The notes under the pieces were generated by a model, which worked only from the letters and a program-made list of their open reading frames with translations, searched no databases and had not been told where the DNA came from. A stretch of 32,153 bases of DNA, taken from assembly GCA_030628225.1 (NCBI GenBank), contig DAOVRJ010000003.1:1-32153 (forward strand), in the 5' to 3' direction. The translations under genes and the position numbers were made by a program. Shown piece after piece: positions 14,487 through 23,558 of this stretch. Source of the stretch: Candidatus Zixiibacteriota bacterium. Its GTDB lineage: Bacteria > SM23-81. Positions within the stretch are counted from its first letter, which is position 1; every line of letters starts with the position of its first letter.

Positions 14487-16403
14487 TCAATCCCAAAACT
14501 CCCAGGAAAGCCCTCCATAAAAAGCCCTGCCAGGAAGAGGATAGCCCGAGCGAAGAAAATATTTCTCATCTCCTAAGTTCTCTGCCAACAGATAAATCTG
14601 GAAATTACTGAGTATACGCGCGGTCACCTTTCCGTTGTACAGGAAGTTTGAGTTCAGTTTCTGTCCCTCATTAGCGTCTGCGTACCGGACCCCCATATAT
14701 TCAATGCCCAACCTGGCAGTTACATCCAGCTCATTTCGAATCAGATTCATGCCATACTGCACATAGCCAGCTATCTTATGCTGCGGTTGATAGGGCAAGC
14801 GCCTGTCCAGTAAATCGTCTTTAGCATCCAGGAAAGCATATGTCAATGAAGACTGCAGTCGATCAAGATACTTCACAGTGACCTGGCCCTCAAAACCCTT
14901 AATGATGGCCTGCGACTTGTTCACGGGCATCCAGCAGCCGTAGACATAGCTTTCGTCCACATTGTCCCATTGTATGAGATCGCTAACTTCCCGGCGGAAA
15001 AAGCATCCGTTCCCGGTGAACAGGCCGGCTTGTATCCGCCCTCCGATCTGAAAAGCCACCGCCTTTTCGGGCTTAACGTCTACGTTGCCGCTTTCCCCGT
15101 AATCTAACTTTCCGTCCAGATCATAATCGATATTGCTCTTAGGCCAATAGAGATCATTGAAGGTCGGGGTCCTGTATGAGCGCCTAAAGGAGGTAAAAAG
15201 GGAAGCGTGGTTTCCAGCCAACCAGGTGATGGTCAGGTCGGGGCAGAACTGATCGTCGAATTTCTCATGGTAGTCATATCGACCGGCGAGCCTAAACTTT
15301 ACATTACTACGTAATGTCAGTTCTTCCTGAAGGAACATGGCCCCGCGATACAGGTCGTGGCAGCCGTTTTCCGAGGAATCAAGGCGTCTGTTCTGGATCT
15401 CCCCCCCAACCGTCATTTTATGGGCGCTGCCAAAGGAAAAGCTATTTTGGAGTTCGATTCCGTAAATCCATCGCCTGTGTTTTGCCTCGGTGAAGAAATC
15501 AGGGTTTTTATACTCCTGTCGGCTGTAGTTTCGGTAGATGATTGAGCGAAAGCTATTTTCTAAGCCCTTACAGAACTGCAGGGTGATGGCCTGATTCCAG
15601 TTTTGATCCTCCTGGTGTGCGTTTGGAGTGGGCATTATGTCCATGCCGGGAACGCCAAGATCTGCATCATAGAGATGTGTTCTATATGTAATAAGCCCCT
15701 TTTCGCCCAAGGAACAGCTGAGCTTACCGGTCATATGCCGTCCCTCGAAGTCGCTGTTATCTCTGAAGCCAGCGGATTTTATTGATGAACCCATGAGGTT
15801 GAGACCAAAACGCTGACCAAACAGTCGAGCAAATCGAGCGGCGACTTTTTCCAGATCGCCAGCCCCTTTCTGGTATTTTATATGCGTTAAAGGCCTTTCA
15901 TAGATGGTGGATCGAGTAATGATGTTGACTACGCCCCCCAGAGCATCTGCCCCGTACAGAGAAGAAACCGCCCCTCGAACCACCTCTATACTCTGCACAT
16001 CTTCCAGGGGAATAAGATTCAGATCAAACCCACCGAGTTGAATATCGTTGATTGGTACCCCGTCTATCATGATCAATACCTGTCCGGAAGTGCTGCCGCG
16101 CAAGCTCAGACTCGCATTTTGTCCTATGCTCCCATAAGTTCCCACACTGACGCCGGGCAATAGTTTTAGAACATCACCTAAGTGTTGAGCAGAAGATTGT
16201 TCGATATCGGCGCTGGTCAGAACATCCACATTGGCGTCGCTCTCCCATAGGGTATGAGGCGTCCTTGTGGCCGTGACCACTATTGGTTGAAGCTGATAGT
16301 CGACCTGCTCCCCCGCTGTTGCGATAGAGGCCTGATCAGAATTCGCCCCTGCGGTGGAGGTTGATAGAGCCAAGACCAATGAGAACATCAACGGAAGACG
16401 CAT
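14487..16403 (-). CDS. TonB-dependent outer-membrane receptor (BtuB-like)
   Basis: Signal peptide; TonB-box-like PIVVTATRTP; plug domain (LGDVLKLLPGVSVGTYGSIGQNASLSLRGSTSGQVLIMIDGVPIND...VVRGAVSSLYGADALGGVVNIITR); C-terminal LAENLGDEKYFLRSGYPLPGRAFYGGLSWEF. Confidence 0.93.
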   Translation of the reverse strand: MRLPLMFSLVLALSTSTAGANSDQASIATAGEQVDYQLQPIVVTATRTPHTLWESDANVDVLTSADIEQSSAQHLGDVLKLLPGVSVGTYGSIGQNASLSLRGSTSGQVLIMIDGVPINDIQLGGFDLNLIPLEDVQSIEVVRGAVSSLYGADALGGVVNIITRSTIYERPLTHIKYQKGAGDLEKVAARFARLFGQRFGLNLMGSSIKSAGFRDNSDFEGRHMTGKLSCSLGEKGLITYRTHLYDADLGVPGMDIMPTPNAHQEDQNWNQAITLQFCKGLENSFRSIIYRNYSRQEYKNPDFFTEAKHRRWIYGIELQNSFSFGSAHKMTVGGEIQNRRLDSSENGCHDLYRGAMFLQEELTLRSNVKFRLAGRYDYHEKFDDQFCPDLTITWLAGNHASLFTSFRRSYRTPTFNDLYWPKSNIDYDLDGKLDYGESGNVDVKPEKAVAFQIGGRIQAGLFTGNGCFFRREVSDLIQWDNVDESYVYGCWMPVNKSQAIIKGFEGQVTVKYLDRLQSSLTYAFLDAKDDLLDRRLPYQPQHKIAGYVQYGMNLIRNELDVTARLGIEYMGVRYADANEGQKLNSNFLYNGKVTARILSNFQIYLLAENLGDEKYFLRSGYPLPGRAFYGGLSWEFWD

Positions 16404-16721: not shown

Positions 16722-18050
16722 TCATTTCATATTGCCCAAGCTTTTGTCAAAGATACCTACCCGGTTGGAATCTTCGTTCTCTTCAGCTCCCTTTCGTGCT
16801 CGCACCAGATAATACCGGGACTCGGTCGGTGGCGTTGGGTCCGTCCATTTATCTTCTGTAGTAGAATCTGCGGGAGTTGTGGGCGCAAAGTTAGGATCTA
16901 GGTCATCGCTATAAATGCGATATATATCCACCCCGTTCTTGGCGGTCCAGGACAGTTGAAATGTCCCTTTGTCCTTGATGATCGTCAAATCATCTATTGG
17001 GCCCATGTATGCTTCCATTATGGTCATATCTTGAGCTCCATCGCCGAAGCCATAGGTAGCCATAACAGTATCCCCGTGGGGGCAAAACCTCTGCACGGCA
17101 TCGTCCATGTAATTGTTGACATAAATCACGTCCTCGATCTGATCATAAAACAGGCGCATTGCCCCATCTCCTACCCGGATAGGATTGATACTGTTATGAT
17201 AAACAGTGTCGGCGTAAATATCGTAAGTGTACAGAAATCCGTTGACAAAATCGCCCCAGTCGCAGAGATAAACCTGGCCATCGATCGTGACGATGATATC
17301 TCCGGGAGCTCCGCCAATTTCCACGGTGTCAACCACAGCTGGCCCACCGTCGGGACCGGCCCAACGGTCAATAATGCAGATCTTTCCGGCTTCGCTGACA
17401 TAATCGCCGGTGCAGACCACGTAAACTCTGCCATCCGGTCCCAGAGCAAGGTCCTGGGCATTTATGGGCACCGCCAGGGTTGTGGTCACCGTATCGGCGC
17501 TGACGTCGATGACGGAAACTGATGAGGCATCGTATTTCGCCAGAGAGGTGTCCACACCAGAGTTGGTCACAAAGGCGGTGTCTCCCAACACCAGAACCCC
17601 CTGAGGTCTCGGTCCCACGGGAATATCTTTCTCTATGATGCTGTTCTCCAGATCCACCACAGATACCGTGTTGAGCAGCCAATTGGTCACATATGCCCGT
17701 TCGTCGCTAACGAAGTCCATGAACCAGGGATTGCTTGTATCGGCCAAAGCAATTCTCTTCTCCACCTGGTCACAGAGGGGATTGATGATCATGATCTCCG
17801 GCGGATCGGAATTGACCACGTAGACCCTTTTCTGGTGAGCGATCACCTGATTGGGAACATCACCCAGGGCCAAAACATCGTTGGTGATCTGGCTGTTTTC
17901 CAGATTCATCTTAGAAAGTGTTTTGGCCGACCCATTCATCACGTAAAGAGTTCTGGGGACATCAGCGCCGTTTGCATTTGAAGTGGCAATAAATAATATG
18001 ATATAAATCATCATGAACATCGTTCTCATCATGATACCTTTCATGATCAT
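16722..18050 (-). CDS. Secreted YncE-like beta-propeller protein with C-terminal FN3-like domain
   Basis: Signal peptide (MFMMIYIILFIATSNANGA); repeated propeller blades (LYVMNGSAKTLSKMNLENSQITNDVLALGDVPNQVI; AYVTNWLLNTVSVVDLENSIIEKDIPVGPRPQGVLV...); C-terminal FQLSWTAKNGVDIYRIYSDD...SRYYLVRARKG. Confidence 0.85.
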   Translation of the reverse strand: MIMKGIMMRTMFMMIYIILFIATSNANGADVPRTLYVMNGSAKTLSKMNLENSQITNDVLALGDVPNQVIAHQKRVYVVNSDPPEIMIINPLCDQVEKRIALADTSNPWFMDFVSDERAYVTNWLLNTVSVVDLENSIIEKDIPVGPRPQGVLVLGDTAFVTNSGVDTSLAKYDASSVSVIDVSADTVTTTLAVPINAQDLALGPDGRVYVVCTGDYVSEAGKICIIDRWAGPDGGPAVVDTVEIGGAPGDIIVTIDGQVYLCDWGDFVNGFLYTYDIYADTVYHNSINPIRVGDGAMRLFYDQIEDVIYVNNYMDDAVQRFCPHGDTVMATYGFGDGAQDMTIMEAYMGPIDDLTIIKDKGTFQLSWTAKNGVDIYRIYSDDLDPNFAPTTPADSTTEDKWTDPTPPTESRYYLVRARKGAEENEDSNRVGIFDKSLGNMK

Positions 18051-18186: not shown

Positions 18187-20100
18187 TCAGCGGATGAGGA
18201 TCATTTTACGCGTCTCGGTTAGTTCGCCTATCTTTAAACTACAGAAATAGATACCGCTGCTAACCGGCCTGCCCGTATAATCCGTTCCATCCCACTTTAT
18301 GTGCTGTTGACCGGCATTCCTGATTCCGTCGATGAGAGTTCTCACCTTCTGTCCCAAAAGATTGAATACAGTGAGTTTGATGGATTCTCGACTTGGAACA
18401 AAATACTGAATGATGGTTTCAGCATTAAAAGGGTTGGGGTAATTCTGCCAGAGTTTAAACGCAACGGGCTGAACCATTGGATCCTCTTCGTTCACCAGCG
18501 TCGTGGATGAGCTGTTCACAGCCACGATGGCGTCCAGGTCAAAATCGCCATTGTACAAACCCTCCTGATAGATGTCGCCCAGATCAGTGATTCTAACATA
18601 AGTCGCCCATTCCAGCCCCAAATCTGCTAAATCAAAATGATCCCCACCGGACACCGTGGGATCTGTGGGATTGAGGTTGTCATCCGTGGGAGTCACCCCG
18701 GCTAGTCCAGACATGTCTGTGGTGTCGTAGGGGAATTGATACCAGTTTTGTCCATTTTGACTGACGGATACAATGCCCGCCTCCATAAACACAGTACCGA
18801 AGATGGAGATGAACGCATTTTCAAATACGGTGAAATCCACGCCATGGCCATCGACGATGGCATTGTCGATGAACCTGAGGATAATTTCGCCTCCGTGTCC
18901 CAGGGATAAGAGTTCCTCTGGCTTGCAGCTTGGACTGTTAGGATTTATGCTCGGATCAGGATCAGGTGGACCGAGAACGTTATTCGGGAAGTAGTTATAC
19001 CCGAATTCGCTCCAATTCTCCCCGGGCGTGAAGCTGACCACCTCGTCTGCCCAGGGATCTGAACTCATGATCGGCTCCACTATGGCCATATCTTGAGCTC
19101 CCTCTCCAAAATTGTACGTTGCCAGCACCGTATCTGCATCTACATCAAATTTCTGGACGGTATCATCGCCAAAATTAGATATCCAAAGGGCATCTTCTTG
19201 TCCATCATATAGCAGGCGCATAGCACCATAGCCTACCTGTATAGGATTATCCACACCGCGAATAACAGTATCTGCATAGGCATCATACACGTAAAGATGA
19301 CCGTGAGGCTCTGCGCCAAAGGAGGTACAATAACCCTTCCCAGAAGGGGTAATCATGATGTCTCCGGGCATGCCCCCTATTTCAATGGTGTCCACCACGG
19401 CCGGTGTCCAATCGGGTCCGGCCCAGCGATCGATGACCACGATACGGCCGGGGATATCGTCGTAATTGCCAGTACACATGACGTGAATCCGGCCATCGGG
19501 GGCAAGAGCCAAATTTTGAGGATTGGTGAGAACCTCAAGATTTTGAATGATGGTATCTTGCAGGACGTCTATGATGGAGACCGTCGAAGGGCTGTAATGA
19601 GGATATCCGCCGGTGTTGGTGATGAAGGCTTGGTTTTCAACGATCAGGATTCCCTGAGGTCCAATTCCCACTGGTATATCTTTTAGGATAGTTCTGTTTT
19701 CCACATCGACAACAGAAACGCTATTGGCAATTAAATTCGTCACATACGCTTTATTTGCTCCTACAAAGGCCATGTAGTATGGATTGCTGCCCTGGGCTAA
19801 GGAAATGATCACGGGTTCCTGACCATCATCTCTGGGATCGATGATCATGATGTCGTTGGTGCCGGAATTTACCACGTAGAGCATGTCGTTGAAGCTCAGT
19901 ATTTGATTGGGCCATTGGCCAATGGTGAGGAAATCATTTACGATGACCTCCGTCTCCAAATTCAATTTGGAAAGAGTTCTGCCCAGTCCGTTGATGATAT
20001 AAAGAGTCCTGGGCTCATCGGCAAATGTAATATTGCCAAGCGAAACCAGCGCTAGACCCACAAAGAGCAAAATGCTTGTAAAAATTCGCTGCCTGATCAT
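18187..20100 (-). CDS. Secreted YncE-like beta-propeller, extra beta-rich (discoidin-like?) domain, T9SS/FlgD-type C-terminal domain
   Basis: Signal peptide; blades paralogous to the neighbouring protein (LYIINGLGRTLSKLNLETEVIVNDFLTIGQWPNQIL); unique middle domain WADEVVSFTPGENWSEFGYNYFPNNVLGPPDP...GHGGEIILRFIDNAIVDGHGVDFTVFENAF; C-terminus LWQNYPNPFNAETIIQYFVPSRESIKLTVFNLLGQKVRTLIDG...GTDYTGRPVSSGIYFCSLKIGELTETRKMILIR. Confidence 0.88.
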   Translation of the reverse strand: MIRQRIFTSILLFVGLALVSLGNITFADEPRTLYIINGLGRTLSKLNLETEVIVNDFLTIGQWPNQILSFNDMLYVVNSGTNDIMIIDPRDDGQEPVIISLAQGSNPYYMAFVGANKAYVTNLIANSVSVVDVENRTILKDIPVGIGPQGILIVENQAFITNTGGYPHYSPSTVSIIDVLQDTIIQNLEVLTNPQNLALAPDGRIHVMCTGNYDDIPGRIVVIDRWAGPDWTPAVVDTIEIGGMPGDIMITPSGKGYCTSFGAEPHGHLYVYDAYADTVIRGVDNPIQVGYGAMRLLYDGQEDALWISNFGDDTVQKFDVDADTVLATYNFGEGAQDMAIVEPIMSSDPWADEVVSFTPGENWSEFGYNYFPNNVLGPPDPDPSINPNSPSCKPEELLSLGHGGEIILRFIDNAIVDGHGVDFTVFENAFISIFGTVFMEAGIVSVSQNGQNWYQFPYDTTDMSGLAGVTPTDDNLNPTDPTVSGGDHFDLADLGLEWATYVRITDLGDIYQEGLYNGDFDLDAIVAVNSSSTTLVNEEDPMVQPVAFKLWQNYPNPFNAETIIQYFVPSRESIKLTVFNLLGQKVRTLIDGIRNAGQQHIKWDGTDYTGRPVSSGIYFCSLKIGELTETRKMILIR

Positions 20101-20146: not shown

Positions 20147-22414
20147 TCAAAACGGGTTCTTTATGGATAATCCTAAACGCCACTCCCTGGGTGGAAGAGG
20201 CATGTCTTCAAGGATCTCATGCCGCTCATCGGTGATGTTGAAAACCGAGAACTTGCACTTTAGTTCCGCCGAGGACACACGAAAGCTCCAGGACACATCT
20301 GTGTCCAACACCTTGTACTGAGGCATCTCGATGGTGTTTGATTCCGTCACAAAGCGTCGGCCAACATTCCGATAATGAATACCCCCCTGCCAGGGATCAA
20401 ATTTAAGATTAATGTTGGCTTTGAATGAATCCTGAGGTTTGTAAGGTAGTATTTTATTGTGCGTCGTCCTCCGATTGCTCTTGTTTATAGGTTTGAGATG
20501 TGAATAGCTGAAAAGCACAGTTACGAATTCCTCGGGAGAGCACAACTCCATTGAATATTCTTGCCCTGTTATTTCTGCATCTGTGTTGAACGGGGAGAAA
20601 ACCTCAAAATTTCCCAGCCTCCATACGATTAGATCATCGATATTGTATCGAAACGCCGTTATCTGCCCCGCTATGTCCCCCCAAGTCGTTAATCGCCAGC
20701 CAAAGCTGGCATCGACATTCAAACTCTTTTCTGGAAGAAGATCGGGTTTCCCCTTAATTCTGAAATCCTGATAAAACAGATCGGCAAAAGTGGGCACACG
20801 AAAAGAACGGGCTAGATTGGACCGGAGATAAAAACGATTACCATCCCCCACTGAAATCAAAAACCCCACTCCCGGACTCCATTGATGCTCAACCCGTTTG
20901 ATCTCGGCATTGTCAATTACAATTTCATCGTAGCGAATGGCAGGTGTAACAATGACTCGCCAGGACAACCATGAAAAATGGTGCTTCCATTCCTGATGCA
21001 AGAGCACACCGTGTGATCGATCTTGAGCCTGACCGATGGTAGTGTTCTTTCCGGTGAGCAGATCGCTATCGCGATACCGCAGCAACCGACCGGTGTAGCC
21101 GGCGGTACATCGAAACCAATGGAGTGGACTGTACTGAACAGTGGAGTTGATCGCCGATGTCTTCAAGATAGCTTCGTAATGATATGGAGGATAGCGCCGA
21201 TATCTCAGCTCGGCATGCGCAGGCCATAAATTAGAGTTTTCGTTGCCAGACTCGCAGTAATCTAAATCGATGGTAACCTGGAGATGATCAATATTGTAAA
21301 CATACTGGGTCCCCAGAATGTCTCGCCTCGAGTTAGCCCGGGCATAAGCCGTCCAGTAGTTGATTTTTCCCGGCAGCCCTCTGTTGGAAATCACTCGCCC
21401 TCCCTTCACACAGATACGATGTCTTCCCCACCCCAGGCTCACATGCCCAAAAAGATTCCGCGATAAGAGATCCGCGTTTATTCTATTCTCCGGGATTGTC
21501 CTATCGTCGGGCGTCTCATAGCTGTAGGGAAAATCCCCCTGGCTTTGCAGATAGTTGTAGGAGACAAAGCAACCGAACCTCCCGTAGCTGCACGACCAAC
21601 TTGGCTCAATCTGGTACAGTTGCCATGAGCCCGTCATACAGTTTAGCTGGGCATTATTTTCGAATTTGTCTCTGGTGATGATGTTCAATACACCACCTAT
21701 TGCTCCCCCACCGAATCTTGGTGAAGTACCTCCTCTGTAAACCTCGATTTTCTCAATAATATTTATAGGCACTTCGGAGAGATCGACCTCGCCCATGAGC
21801 GCGTCGTTAAGCGGCATGCCATCCAACAGAACCAGGACCTGATTGGTCGGGCTGCCTCGAATTGAGATCTTCTTTCCGTTTCCCAATCCTCCCGTGTTTT
21901 GAATTTCCACTCCTGGAACCCCTTGCAACAGTTCTCCAACAGACTGGAAATTAGACTCTTCTATCTTTCTACGGGTTATGGTAAACACATCTGTCGTGGG
22001 GATATCTGTCCATCTTTCGGCGAAAACCTCTATTTCTGCTATAGGAATCAGTTTTGGGCTGAGTTGGTAATTTACATGTACGGGTTGATCTCGGAACACT
22101 GTTATATCCGAGATCGTCAGAGTCTCATACCCAATATAGCTGGCCGATACTGTATAAATACCAACGAGCAAGTTCTCCAACTGGAAATAACCATGCTCAT
22201 CGGTGATCGCACCTATTCCCTTGCCGTGGACCACCACATTAGCTCCCAAAAGGGGATTGCCAGTATCTATATCTGTCACCAACCCGCAGATTTTAGCGGT
22301 AGACTGTGCCCATGCTGTTGAGCACAGTAACAGCGCGAATACGCACAAGATCGTTGTATTGCGAGTCAACTGAGGTGTCCTTCCAAATAGAAAAGGCGAA
22401 ATACTACGGCTCAA
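20147..22414 (-). CDS. btuB: TonB-dependent receptor with N-terminal CarboxypepD_reg-like domain, B12-riboswitch-controlled (BtuB-like); actual start probably TTG near 22369
   Basis: ICGLVTDIDTGNPLLGANVVVHGKGIGAITDEHGYFQLENLLVGIYTVSASYIGYET; plug (VGELLQGVPGVEIQNTGGLGNGKKISIRGSPTNQVLVLLDGMPLNDALMGEVDLSEVPINIIEKIEVYRGGTSPRFGGGAIGGVLNIITRD); downstream of a cobalamin riboswitch. Internal TTG (MTRNTTILCVFALLLCSTAWAQS) has GGAAGGA just upstream. Confidence 0.9.
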   Translation of the reverse strand: MSRSISPFLFGRTPQLTRNTTILCVFALLLCSTAWAQSTAKICGLVTDIDTGNPLLGANVVVHGKGIGAITDEHGYFQLENLLVGIYTVSASYIGYETLTISDITVFRDQPVHVNYQLSPKLIPIAEIEVFAERWTDIPTTDVFTITRRKIEESNFQSVGELLQGVPGVEIQNTGGLGNGKKISIRGSPTNQVLVLLDGMPLNDALMGEVDLSEVPINIIEKIEVYRGGTSPRFGGGAIGGVLNIITRDKFENNAQLNCMTGSWQLYQIEPSWSCSYGRFGCFVSYNYLQSQGDFPYSYETPDDRTIPENRINADLLSRNLFGHVSLGWGRHRICVKGGRVISNRGLPGKINYWTAYARANSRRDILGTQYVYNIDHLQVTIDLDYCESGNENSNLWPAHAELRYRRYPPYHYEAILKTSAINSTVQYSPLHWFRCTAGYTGRLLRYRDSDLLTGKNTTIGQAQDRSHGVLLHQEWKHHFSWLSWRVIVTPAIRYDEIVIDNAEIKRVEHQWSPGVGFLISVGDGNRFYLRSNLARSFRVPTFADLFYQDFRIKGKPDLLPEKSLNVDASFGWRLTTWGDIAGQITAFRYNIDDLIVWRLGNFEVFSPFNTDAEITGQEYSMELCSPEEFVTVLFSYSHLKPINKSNRRTTHNKILPYKPQDSFKANINLKFDPWQGGIHYRNVGRRFVTESNTIEMPQYKVLDTDVSWSFRVSSAELKCKFSVFNITDERHEILEDMPLPPREWRLGLSIKNPF

Positions 22415-22494: not shown

Positions 22495-22672
22495 GGATCT
22501 TCACTGGAGACGGCAGGTTTCCTGGCTATGGGCATCGGACCTACTCGCCACGCCTTCCCGTCCCCCTTAATGGAAACAGTGGCAATTGTGGCTTTCGTAG
22601 CCCATCACAGTAGCGGGGCTGCGACGGATTTTCACCGTCTTCCCTATTGGCCCTTGCGGGCACCGCCTTCGT
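22495..22672 (-). promoter_or_regulatory. Cobalamin riboswitch (B12 box) upstream of btuB/propeller operon
   Basis: Minus strand GGTGCCCGCAAGGGCCAATAGGGAAGACGGTGAAAATCCGTCGCAGCCCCGCTACTGTGATG ... GCCAGGAAACCTGCCGTCTCC. Confidence 0.95.
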
Positions 22673-22713
22673 GTTGTATTCGCAAAGAGCAGACTTAAGA
22701 AGTGATATCTGGC

Positions 22714-23235
22714 TCAGCAATCATCTGGAGCTGTCCAGCGAGGTCTTATCTTGTATATTAATGGCCCGATCACGGTAAAGATCATCAAATTCGAGACCAT
22801 GTGTATAATCGAAAACATCATGCCCGCGACCAGAACAGCCGACAACTTTGAGGCCATTCCAAAGGATATGGCCATTGCCACGTTGGTAACGATGTCATAA
22901 AACAGCGTACATGCCAAACCACAAAGCGCCATCTTCGCCCAAGTAAATCCCCTGTCCAGCCAAGGCTGAATCGCTCCCCCCACTGCTCCGATGGTGGCCA
23001 TTCCGCCCACTTGAGCCAAGGCCACGGGAAGTACCGGAGCACCCATGGGGTTCAGGGTGGTGAACAAGCCCATGGAGATGATTCCCACTATGAAGCCGCC
23101 CTTCGATCCCAGGATGTAGCCGGCCATGAAGATCACCAAGGTGACAAGCTCCACGTTGGGCACATGCACCAACGAAAACCCCAGGGCTACAGCCAGGGCC
23201 ACAAAGGTGGCGGAGAGGGCAAAATCTCGGATCAC
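22714..23235 (-). CDS. Membrane protein resembling an ECF transporter S-component; candidate cobalamin uptake (CbrT-like role)
   Basis: Small hydrophobic protein MRDFALSATFVALAVALGF...FMAGYILGSKGGFIVGIISMGLFTTLNPMG...GAVGGAIQPWLDRG, typical of ECF S-components; own B12 riboswitch. GTG start. Confidence 0.75.
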   Translation of the reverse strand: MIRDFALSATFVALAVALGFSLVHVPNVELVTLVIFMAGYILGSKGGFIVGIISMGLFTTLNPMGAPVLPVALAQVGGMATIGAVGGAIQPWLDRGFTWAKMALCGLACTLFYDIVTNVAMAISFGMASKLSAVLVAGMMFSIIHMVSNLMIFTVIGPLIYKIRPRWTAPDDC

Positions 23236-23302: not shown

Positions 23303-23344
23303 ACTAGAAGACGAAACCTTCCCGCGAAGGCATTTTTTCGCTGG

Positions 23345-23545
23345 ACGCAGGCAGGTCTCCTGGCTCTCGGCAAAAGAAGCGCCATCCTTCCCAGGGAAAA
23401 ACTAACTCCCCAGTGGCCTACAATATATCGCTTCTGAGGTTCCGGCCTGAAAACAGCCGGACCTCCTGCCGATCACAGTGGCGGGGCCGCTCGGTTTTCC
23501 ACCGTTTTCCCTATTCTCCGCTCCTACGGCACCTGCGCCTTCATG
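23345..23545 (-). promoter_or_regulatory. Cobalamin riboswitch upstream of the ECF-S-like gene
   Basis: Minus strand GCAGGTGCCGTAGGAGCGGAGAATAGGGAAAACGGTGGAAAACCGAGCGGCCCCGCCACTGTGATCGG ... GCCACTGG ... GGGAAGGATGGC ... GCCAGGAGACCTGCC. Confidence 0.96.
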
Positions 23546-23558
23546 TTTCTTCCGCGCT

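Follow-up and report, generated by a model that had tools for sequence, protein, structure and literature searches.

The window, the whole 32,153-nucleotide stretch of DNA analysed here, very probably encodes a BtuGH-type cobamide-capture protein of 637 aa, whose putative binding activity is deduced from homology and genomic context. Its architecture is that of BtuGH from Bacteroides thetaiotaomicron (BT_1490) with T9SS export replacing the lipid anchor. While btuH has been described as patchy in gut Bacteroidetes and three Firmicutes species (PMC8941943), new here are the T9SS variant, H domains in phyla other than Bacteroidota, a prepilin-like cassette in Planctomycetota and a distant link to LIC_13355 of Leptospira. 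The gene and the parts of its product are as follows:

18187..20100, minus strand: BtuGH-type gene, 637 aa, comprising signal peptide, BtuG propeller, BtuH-like domain and T9SS type A sorting domain
20020..20100, minus strand: signal peptide region, aa 1-27, without cysteine or lipobox (sequence read directly)
19066..20013, minus strand: BtuG-like YVTN beta-propeller, aa 30-345 (TIGR03866, phmmer, AlphaFold and Foldseek)
18508..19059, minus strand: compact BtuH-like domain, aa 348-531, in which N428 aligns with the B12-contacting Asn399 of BtuH2 (profiles, model)
18199..18441, minus strand: T9SS type A C-terminal sorting domain, aa 554-634, with YPNPFN (PF18962, TIGR04183)

The open reading frame runs uninterrupted along the minus strand from 20100 to 18187, and the plus-strand reading of this interval has stops throughout. 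An earlier note on this DNA had reported the 637-aa frame, which is real and contains the peptides quoted there, without giving its strand. Its division of the protein into a propeller, a middle domain and a C-terminal T9SS/FlgD-like domain agrees with the Pfam and NCBIfam matches and with the domain boundaries. The N-terminus (MIRQRIFTSILLFVGLALVSLGNITFADEPRT) is signal-peptide-like and, read directly, shows no lipobox, with no cysteine in the first 32 residues.

Along the minus strand, the surrounding locus consists of a riboswitch and an ECF S component, followed by a further riboswitch, a BtuB-like receptor, the BtuGH gene, a second BtuG-like propeller and a second BtuB-like receptor:

23333..23551, minus strand: second cobalamin riboswitch, ahead of the ECF S component (78.3 bits)
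22714..23235, minus strand: substrate-binding (S) component of an ECF transporter, a candidate for corrinoid import across the inner membrane (PF07155, 26.5 bits against a cut-off of 26.7; PF12822 weaker)
22495..22681, minus strand: cobalamin riboswitch RF00174 (102.3 bits), preceding the genes for the BtuB-like receptor and BtuGH
20147..22414, minus strand: TonB-dependent receptor, BtuB-like, first gene after the riboswitch (TIGR01779, E 6.9e-49, 166.9 bits, below the cut-off of 599.7)
16722..18050, minus strand: 442-aa BtuG-like protein, the second propeller of the locus, with neither sorting domain nor lipobox (DUF5074 below cut-off at 24.4 bits; 8ptf/8ptd, E 3e-8; 8blw_B, E 3e-7)
14487..16403, minus strand: second TonB-dependent receptor, BtuB-like (TIGR01779, E 3.1e-58, below cut-off)

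Both receptors are nearest to the TonB-B12 receptor model, yet score below its cut-off. The 2.34-Mb assembly has no cobalamin riboswitches other than the two of the window. A search of this genome for CbiD, which marks anaerobic B12 synthesis, was negative, consistent with a B12 scavenger, although the assembly is 92% complete and the gene could be missing from it. The match to the MetH B12 domain in the genome is marginal. We also observed that the second receptor ends the operon, giving two receptors and two propellers at the locus, that the C-terminal stretch of the second propeller protein reads like a fibronectin type III domain, and that relatives of the ECF S component lie near receptors at two of the related loci described below (L011 and L014).

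The propeller carries YVTN repeats (TIGR03866, E 2.4e-20) and matches 8ptf/8ptd in a phmmer search of the PDB (E 1.1e-5), with the archaeal S-layer propeller 1l0q scoring highest by sequence and BtuG1 second. A whole-protein AlphaFold run with seven sequences modelled the propeller (pLDDT around 90) and the tail well, though not the H domain, so the fold of the latter rests on a separate domain model. Among the 18 best PDB fold matches of the whole-protein model in Foldseek, 16 belong to the BtuG family (BtuG1, BtuG2 and BtuG3), counting in 3dsm, a surface layer protein from B. uniformis that shares this fold and for which the listing does not state B12 binding. The remaining two are 1l0q, which ranks first, and hydrazine synthase beta. 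BtuG1 (8blw_B) aligns with the model over 648 columns. It counts against a role in B12 capture that YVTN propellers resemble non-corrinoid proteins as well and that 1l0q is the top fold match.

This propeller is thus homologous to BtuG and is encoded alongside a BtuB-type receptor under cobalamin riboswitch control; because a T9SS tail is present in place of a lipoprotein signal peptide, we file the protein as a BtuG-like variant and not as a canonical BtuG lipoprotein. The lipoproteins BtuG2 and BtuG3 share with it the propeller fold and an operon with BtuB, but they are lipid-anchored and of a single domain, whereas the window protein has several domains and a T9SS tail.

The middle domain does not represent a new fold but a compact relative of BtuH, a B12-binding domain. 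No Pfam model matches it in the window protein or in any of 17 aligned members, and likewise none was found for the Bacteroidota BtuH. Its relative from the same phylum (L016) shares 59% identity, and a scan of 84,980 genomes yielded 16 further loci besides this seventeenth one; the 17-member alignment comprises the window and its relatives except L022, whose reading frame is disturbed. Searches of the PDB by phmmer with the single domain and by a two-sequence profile gave no real match, and the 17-sequence profile was needed to obtain one: it finds only 8blw_B, BtuG1/BtuGH of B. thetaiotaomicron, in the H domain (E 4.9e-5, best domain 4.9e-4).

The separate AlphaFold model of the domain (pLDDT 92.6, pTM 0.90) points the same way, with 8blw_B (BtuG1) and 7biz_B (BtuH2) ranking first and second in Foldseek, ahead of F5/8 type C (discoidin) and CBM32 domains. 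BtuH2 is matched moderately well (14% identity, with a query-based TM of 0.51-0.56), and the domain belongs with BtuH by sequence homology and, to this moderate degree, by fold. The earlier note had proposed a Pfam and structure search of this part and had likened it to discoidin domains, which holds in that these are the best fold matches after BtuG1 and BtuH2. The likeness to F5/8 type C (discoidin) and CBM32 domains concerns the general beta-sandwich fold only; the middle domain has no Pfam F5/8 type C match, and we found no evidence for sugar or lipid binding. Its description there as novel-looking does not hold, the fusion of a BtuG propeller with BtuH being already known as BtuG1/BtuGH (PMC10404256, PMC12751083).

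Using the H segment of BtuG1 from the PDB alignment as query, we independently recovered four Bacteroidota BtuH domains from plasmid records; tblastn of the window's middle domain against plasmids returned nothing, and a search of viral contigs with the BtuG1 H segment gave no match. In profile-profile comparison with the Bacteroidota BtuH domains, the pairwise E-values are 5.9e-7 for the KSB1-type members alone and 4.8e-12 when the distant members are added. It is hardly credible that the domain is instead DUF4465 (BtuJ), a different B12 binder with a beta-jelly-roll fold that is known from eight bacterial clades (PMC13398666), given that none of the 17 members has a Pfam match and that fold and profile searches yield BtuG1 and BtuH2, not BtuJ. 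This identity was rejected for want of a DUF4465 profile match.

Since the B. finegoldii BtuH has all eight B12-contact residues named for BtuH2 at their published numbers, the residue numbering of BtuH2 carries over to our alignment. Asn399 of BtuH2, which contacts the phosphate of B12 (PMC8941943), is invariant in all 21 sequences and corresponds to N428 of the window protein, the sole B12 contact of BtuH2 that is clearly kept in the compact domain. Gln333 aligns with Glu365, the compact domain lacks the segment bearing His476, Tyr510 and Trp511, and Trp577 is not clearly alignable. The corrin-side contacts of the compact domain cannot equal those of BtuH2, because the His476/Tyr510/Trp511 stretch is absent. 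BtuH2 itself (BT_1956, PDB 7BIZ) has the domain family, the fold and Asn399 in common with the window domain, but it is a lipoprotein with a longer ligand-side insert and with PKD domains ahead where the window protein has its propeller. For the compact domain, B12 binding is a putative function that we assign from sequence relationships.

The genomic setting of the domain speaks to this assignment directly. At 59 of 60 testable loci from several phyla, a cobalamin riboswitch lies upstream on the same strand, where chance would give about 0.006 per locus on the generous assumption of 10 riboswitches per 4 Mb. The scan set contributes 17 of 17 loci (the window, L007, L009-L015 and L017-L024; L008 is cut by a contig end and was left out), and its H domain is present in exactly one copy in each of 18 genomes. 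From Planctomycetota, the phylum of the Phycisphaerae bacterium with locus L023, we drew an even, separate sample of 392 genomes, 62 of which carry the H domain; among 40 loci inspected, 38 of the 39 testable ones have the riboswitch on the same strand within 5 kb upstream. The one exception, L079, shows no cobalamin riboswitch even at E 1, and L109 was left out, its locus being cut by a contig end. A cobalamin riboswitch also precedes each of the four Bacteroidota BtuH loci.

As modules of common occurrence, propellers, discoidin folds and sorting domains could make up an ordinary secreted adhesin or enzyme placed in a B12 operon by chance, but this linkage, together with the lead of B12-binding proteins among the PDB matches of both domains, makes such a coincidence very improbable. 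The BtuH domain thus occurs in compact form in KSB1, Planctomycetota, Hydrogenedentota and others with a near-perfect cobalamin riboswitch linkage, which offers a direct annotation rule for many "hypothetical" proteins. The earlier note had suggested examining the co-occurrence of the middle domain with B12 riboswitches and had cast the domain as a possible second corrinoid-binding module; its kinship with BtuH and the 59 loci argue in favour of that proposal, with binding itself predicted from homology.

Two main arrangements recur. One runs from riboswitch to receptor to fused BtuG-H (the window and L009-L014). The H domain is present in 38 of 82 genomes from the phylum of L010, and 28 of these 38 contain an open frame as long as the fusion (629-694 aa). 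In the other arrangement the H domain stands alone behind the riboswitch, and receptor and propellers are encoded separately (L007, L015, L017, L018 and Persicobacter). We argue that the H domain itself serves corrinoid uptake because its stand-alone form sits under its own riboswitch. Were the propeller alone to bind corrinoids, the middle domain might do another job in the pathway such as BtuG-BtuB docking or the binding of a surface glycan or of a B12 precursor or carrier, as could be read from the glycans often bound by discoidin and CBM32 folds and from the many BtuH2 ligand residues, most of them, that are not alignable. We consider this unlikely because H domains lacking a propeller in their chain also follow riboswitches directly (Planctomycetota included), because Asn399 is invariant and because the H domain of BtuGH, a homologue, binds B12 without its partner (PMC12751083).

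Returning to the reading of the window protein as a two-domain cobamide binder, its closest known counterpart is BtuGH of B. thetaiotaomicron (PDB 8BLW chain B), a fusion of BtuG and BtuH of which each half binds cobalamin separately (PMC12751083) and whose H domain is docked on the propeller in the cryo-EM structure (PMC10404256). In both proteins the BtuH domain comes after the propeller within a single chain; for both, a gene for a BtuB-type TonB receptor lies alongside, a cobalamin riboswitch controls the locus, and surface localisation is expected. Bacteroides BtuGH is a lipoprotein without a T9SS tail while the opposite applies to the window protein, and its H domain has around 250 residues including the His476/Tyr510/Trp511 stretch, compared to 184 without it in the window protein. 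The B. finegoldii homologue is 26% identical to the window protein over the full alignment.

Regarding export, the sorting domain scores above the cut-offs of both Por_Secre_tail (PF18962, 28.3 bits against 27) and TIGR04183 (40.8 bits against 23), and FlgD_ig (PF13860) also matches the C-terminal domain. The same genome encodes PorU (743 bits, cut-off 420) and SprA (632 bits, cut-off 200) and has 52 Por_Secre_tail matches, so that both the sorting domain and the machinery of a T9SS type A cargo are present. With no lipobox, these findings uphold the proposal of T9SS export in place of lipid anchoring, for which a check of the genome for T9SS core genes had been suggested. In one genome of the same phylum, YPNPFN tails are also carried by two propeller genes and by an H-domain gene that stands alone. 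Our literature search found no paper linking BtuG to T9SS export. Two-domain BtuGH scavenging of B12 would extend, in this way, from lipoproteins of gut Bacteroides to T9SS-exported proteins of uncultured environmental bacteria.

We propose that scarcity of B12 would permit expression of the operon through the riboswitch and that the 637-aa protein would cross the inner membrane via its signal peptide and the outer membrane via the T9SS, a route suggested by the presence of signal and machinery, and remain on or near the surface. There, by analogy to B. thetaiotaomicron, the BtuH-like domain might catch cobamides and pass them to, or work beside, the BtuG propeller. The propeller could in turn form a lid on the BtuB-like receptor, whose gene lies just upstream, and hand the cobamides to it. 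TonB-driven import would follow, and the ECF transporter, with corrinoids as its presumed substrate, might then bring the vitamin in.

In Planctomycetota, a homologous prepilin-like protein is encoded on the same strand after the riboswitch-H gene at 16 of the 20 loci sampled, and at several of them a PQQ-type propeller gene intervenes. L021 and L024 instead have a fusion of the H domain with the prepilin-like HX9DG/DUF1559 protein. The loci concerned are the following:

L019, L021, L023, L024, L110-L123, L128 and L129: loci of the possible cassette in Planctomycetota and Hydrogenedentota

It is possible that the H domain and the prepilin-like HX9DG/DUF1559 protein form an undescribed B12-uptake cassette. 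Prepilin-like HX9DG proteins are very numerous in these bacteria, so the link is to be read with caution. Tentatively, and with more doubt than confidence, we suggest that BtuH-like domains mark widespread, mostly undescribed riboswitch-controlled systems of B12 capture outside Bacteroidota, among which Planctomycetota and Hydrogenedentota may use a pseudopilus-like device, instead of or besides a BtuBG lid, to present captured B12 at the cell surface or to move it there. BT1487, named BtuK2 (PMC12751083), is a quinoprotein-like propeller in the PDB (4r5o, in the fold-match listing) and may be the counterpart of the PQQ propeller of this cassette.

The LIC_13355 lipoprotein family of Leptospira (NF033170) is a distant sequence relative of the H domain, matched by 14 of the 17 members of our alignment (best E 3e-12) and by the L021 protein (L021:7926-10235; E 3.9e-11). 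At 26.9 bits against a curated cut-off of 120, the window domain lies far below membership of the family, as do the other scores seen. LIC_13355 has been studied as a laminin- and plasminogen-binding protein (PMC11891782), and the two cobalamin riboswitches reported in L. interrogans are located at btuB and LIC20135, not at LIC_13355 (PMC3953431). LIC_13355 may be a B12-binding relative, and the link to the H domain suggests another function, open to testing, for this lipoprotein that is currently investigated as an adhesin. In the window protein, the related region covers aa 401-458.
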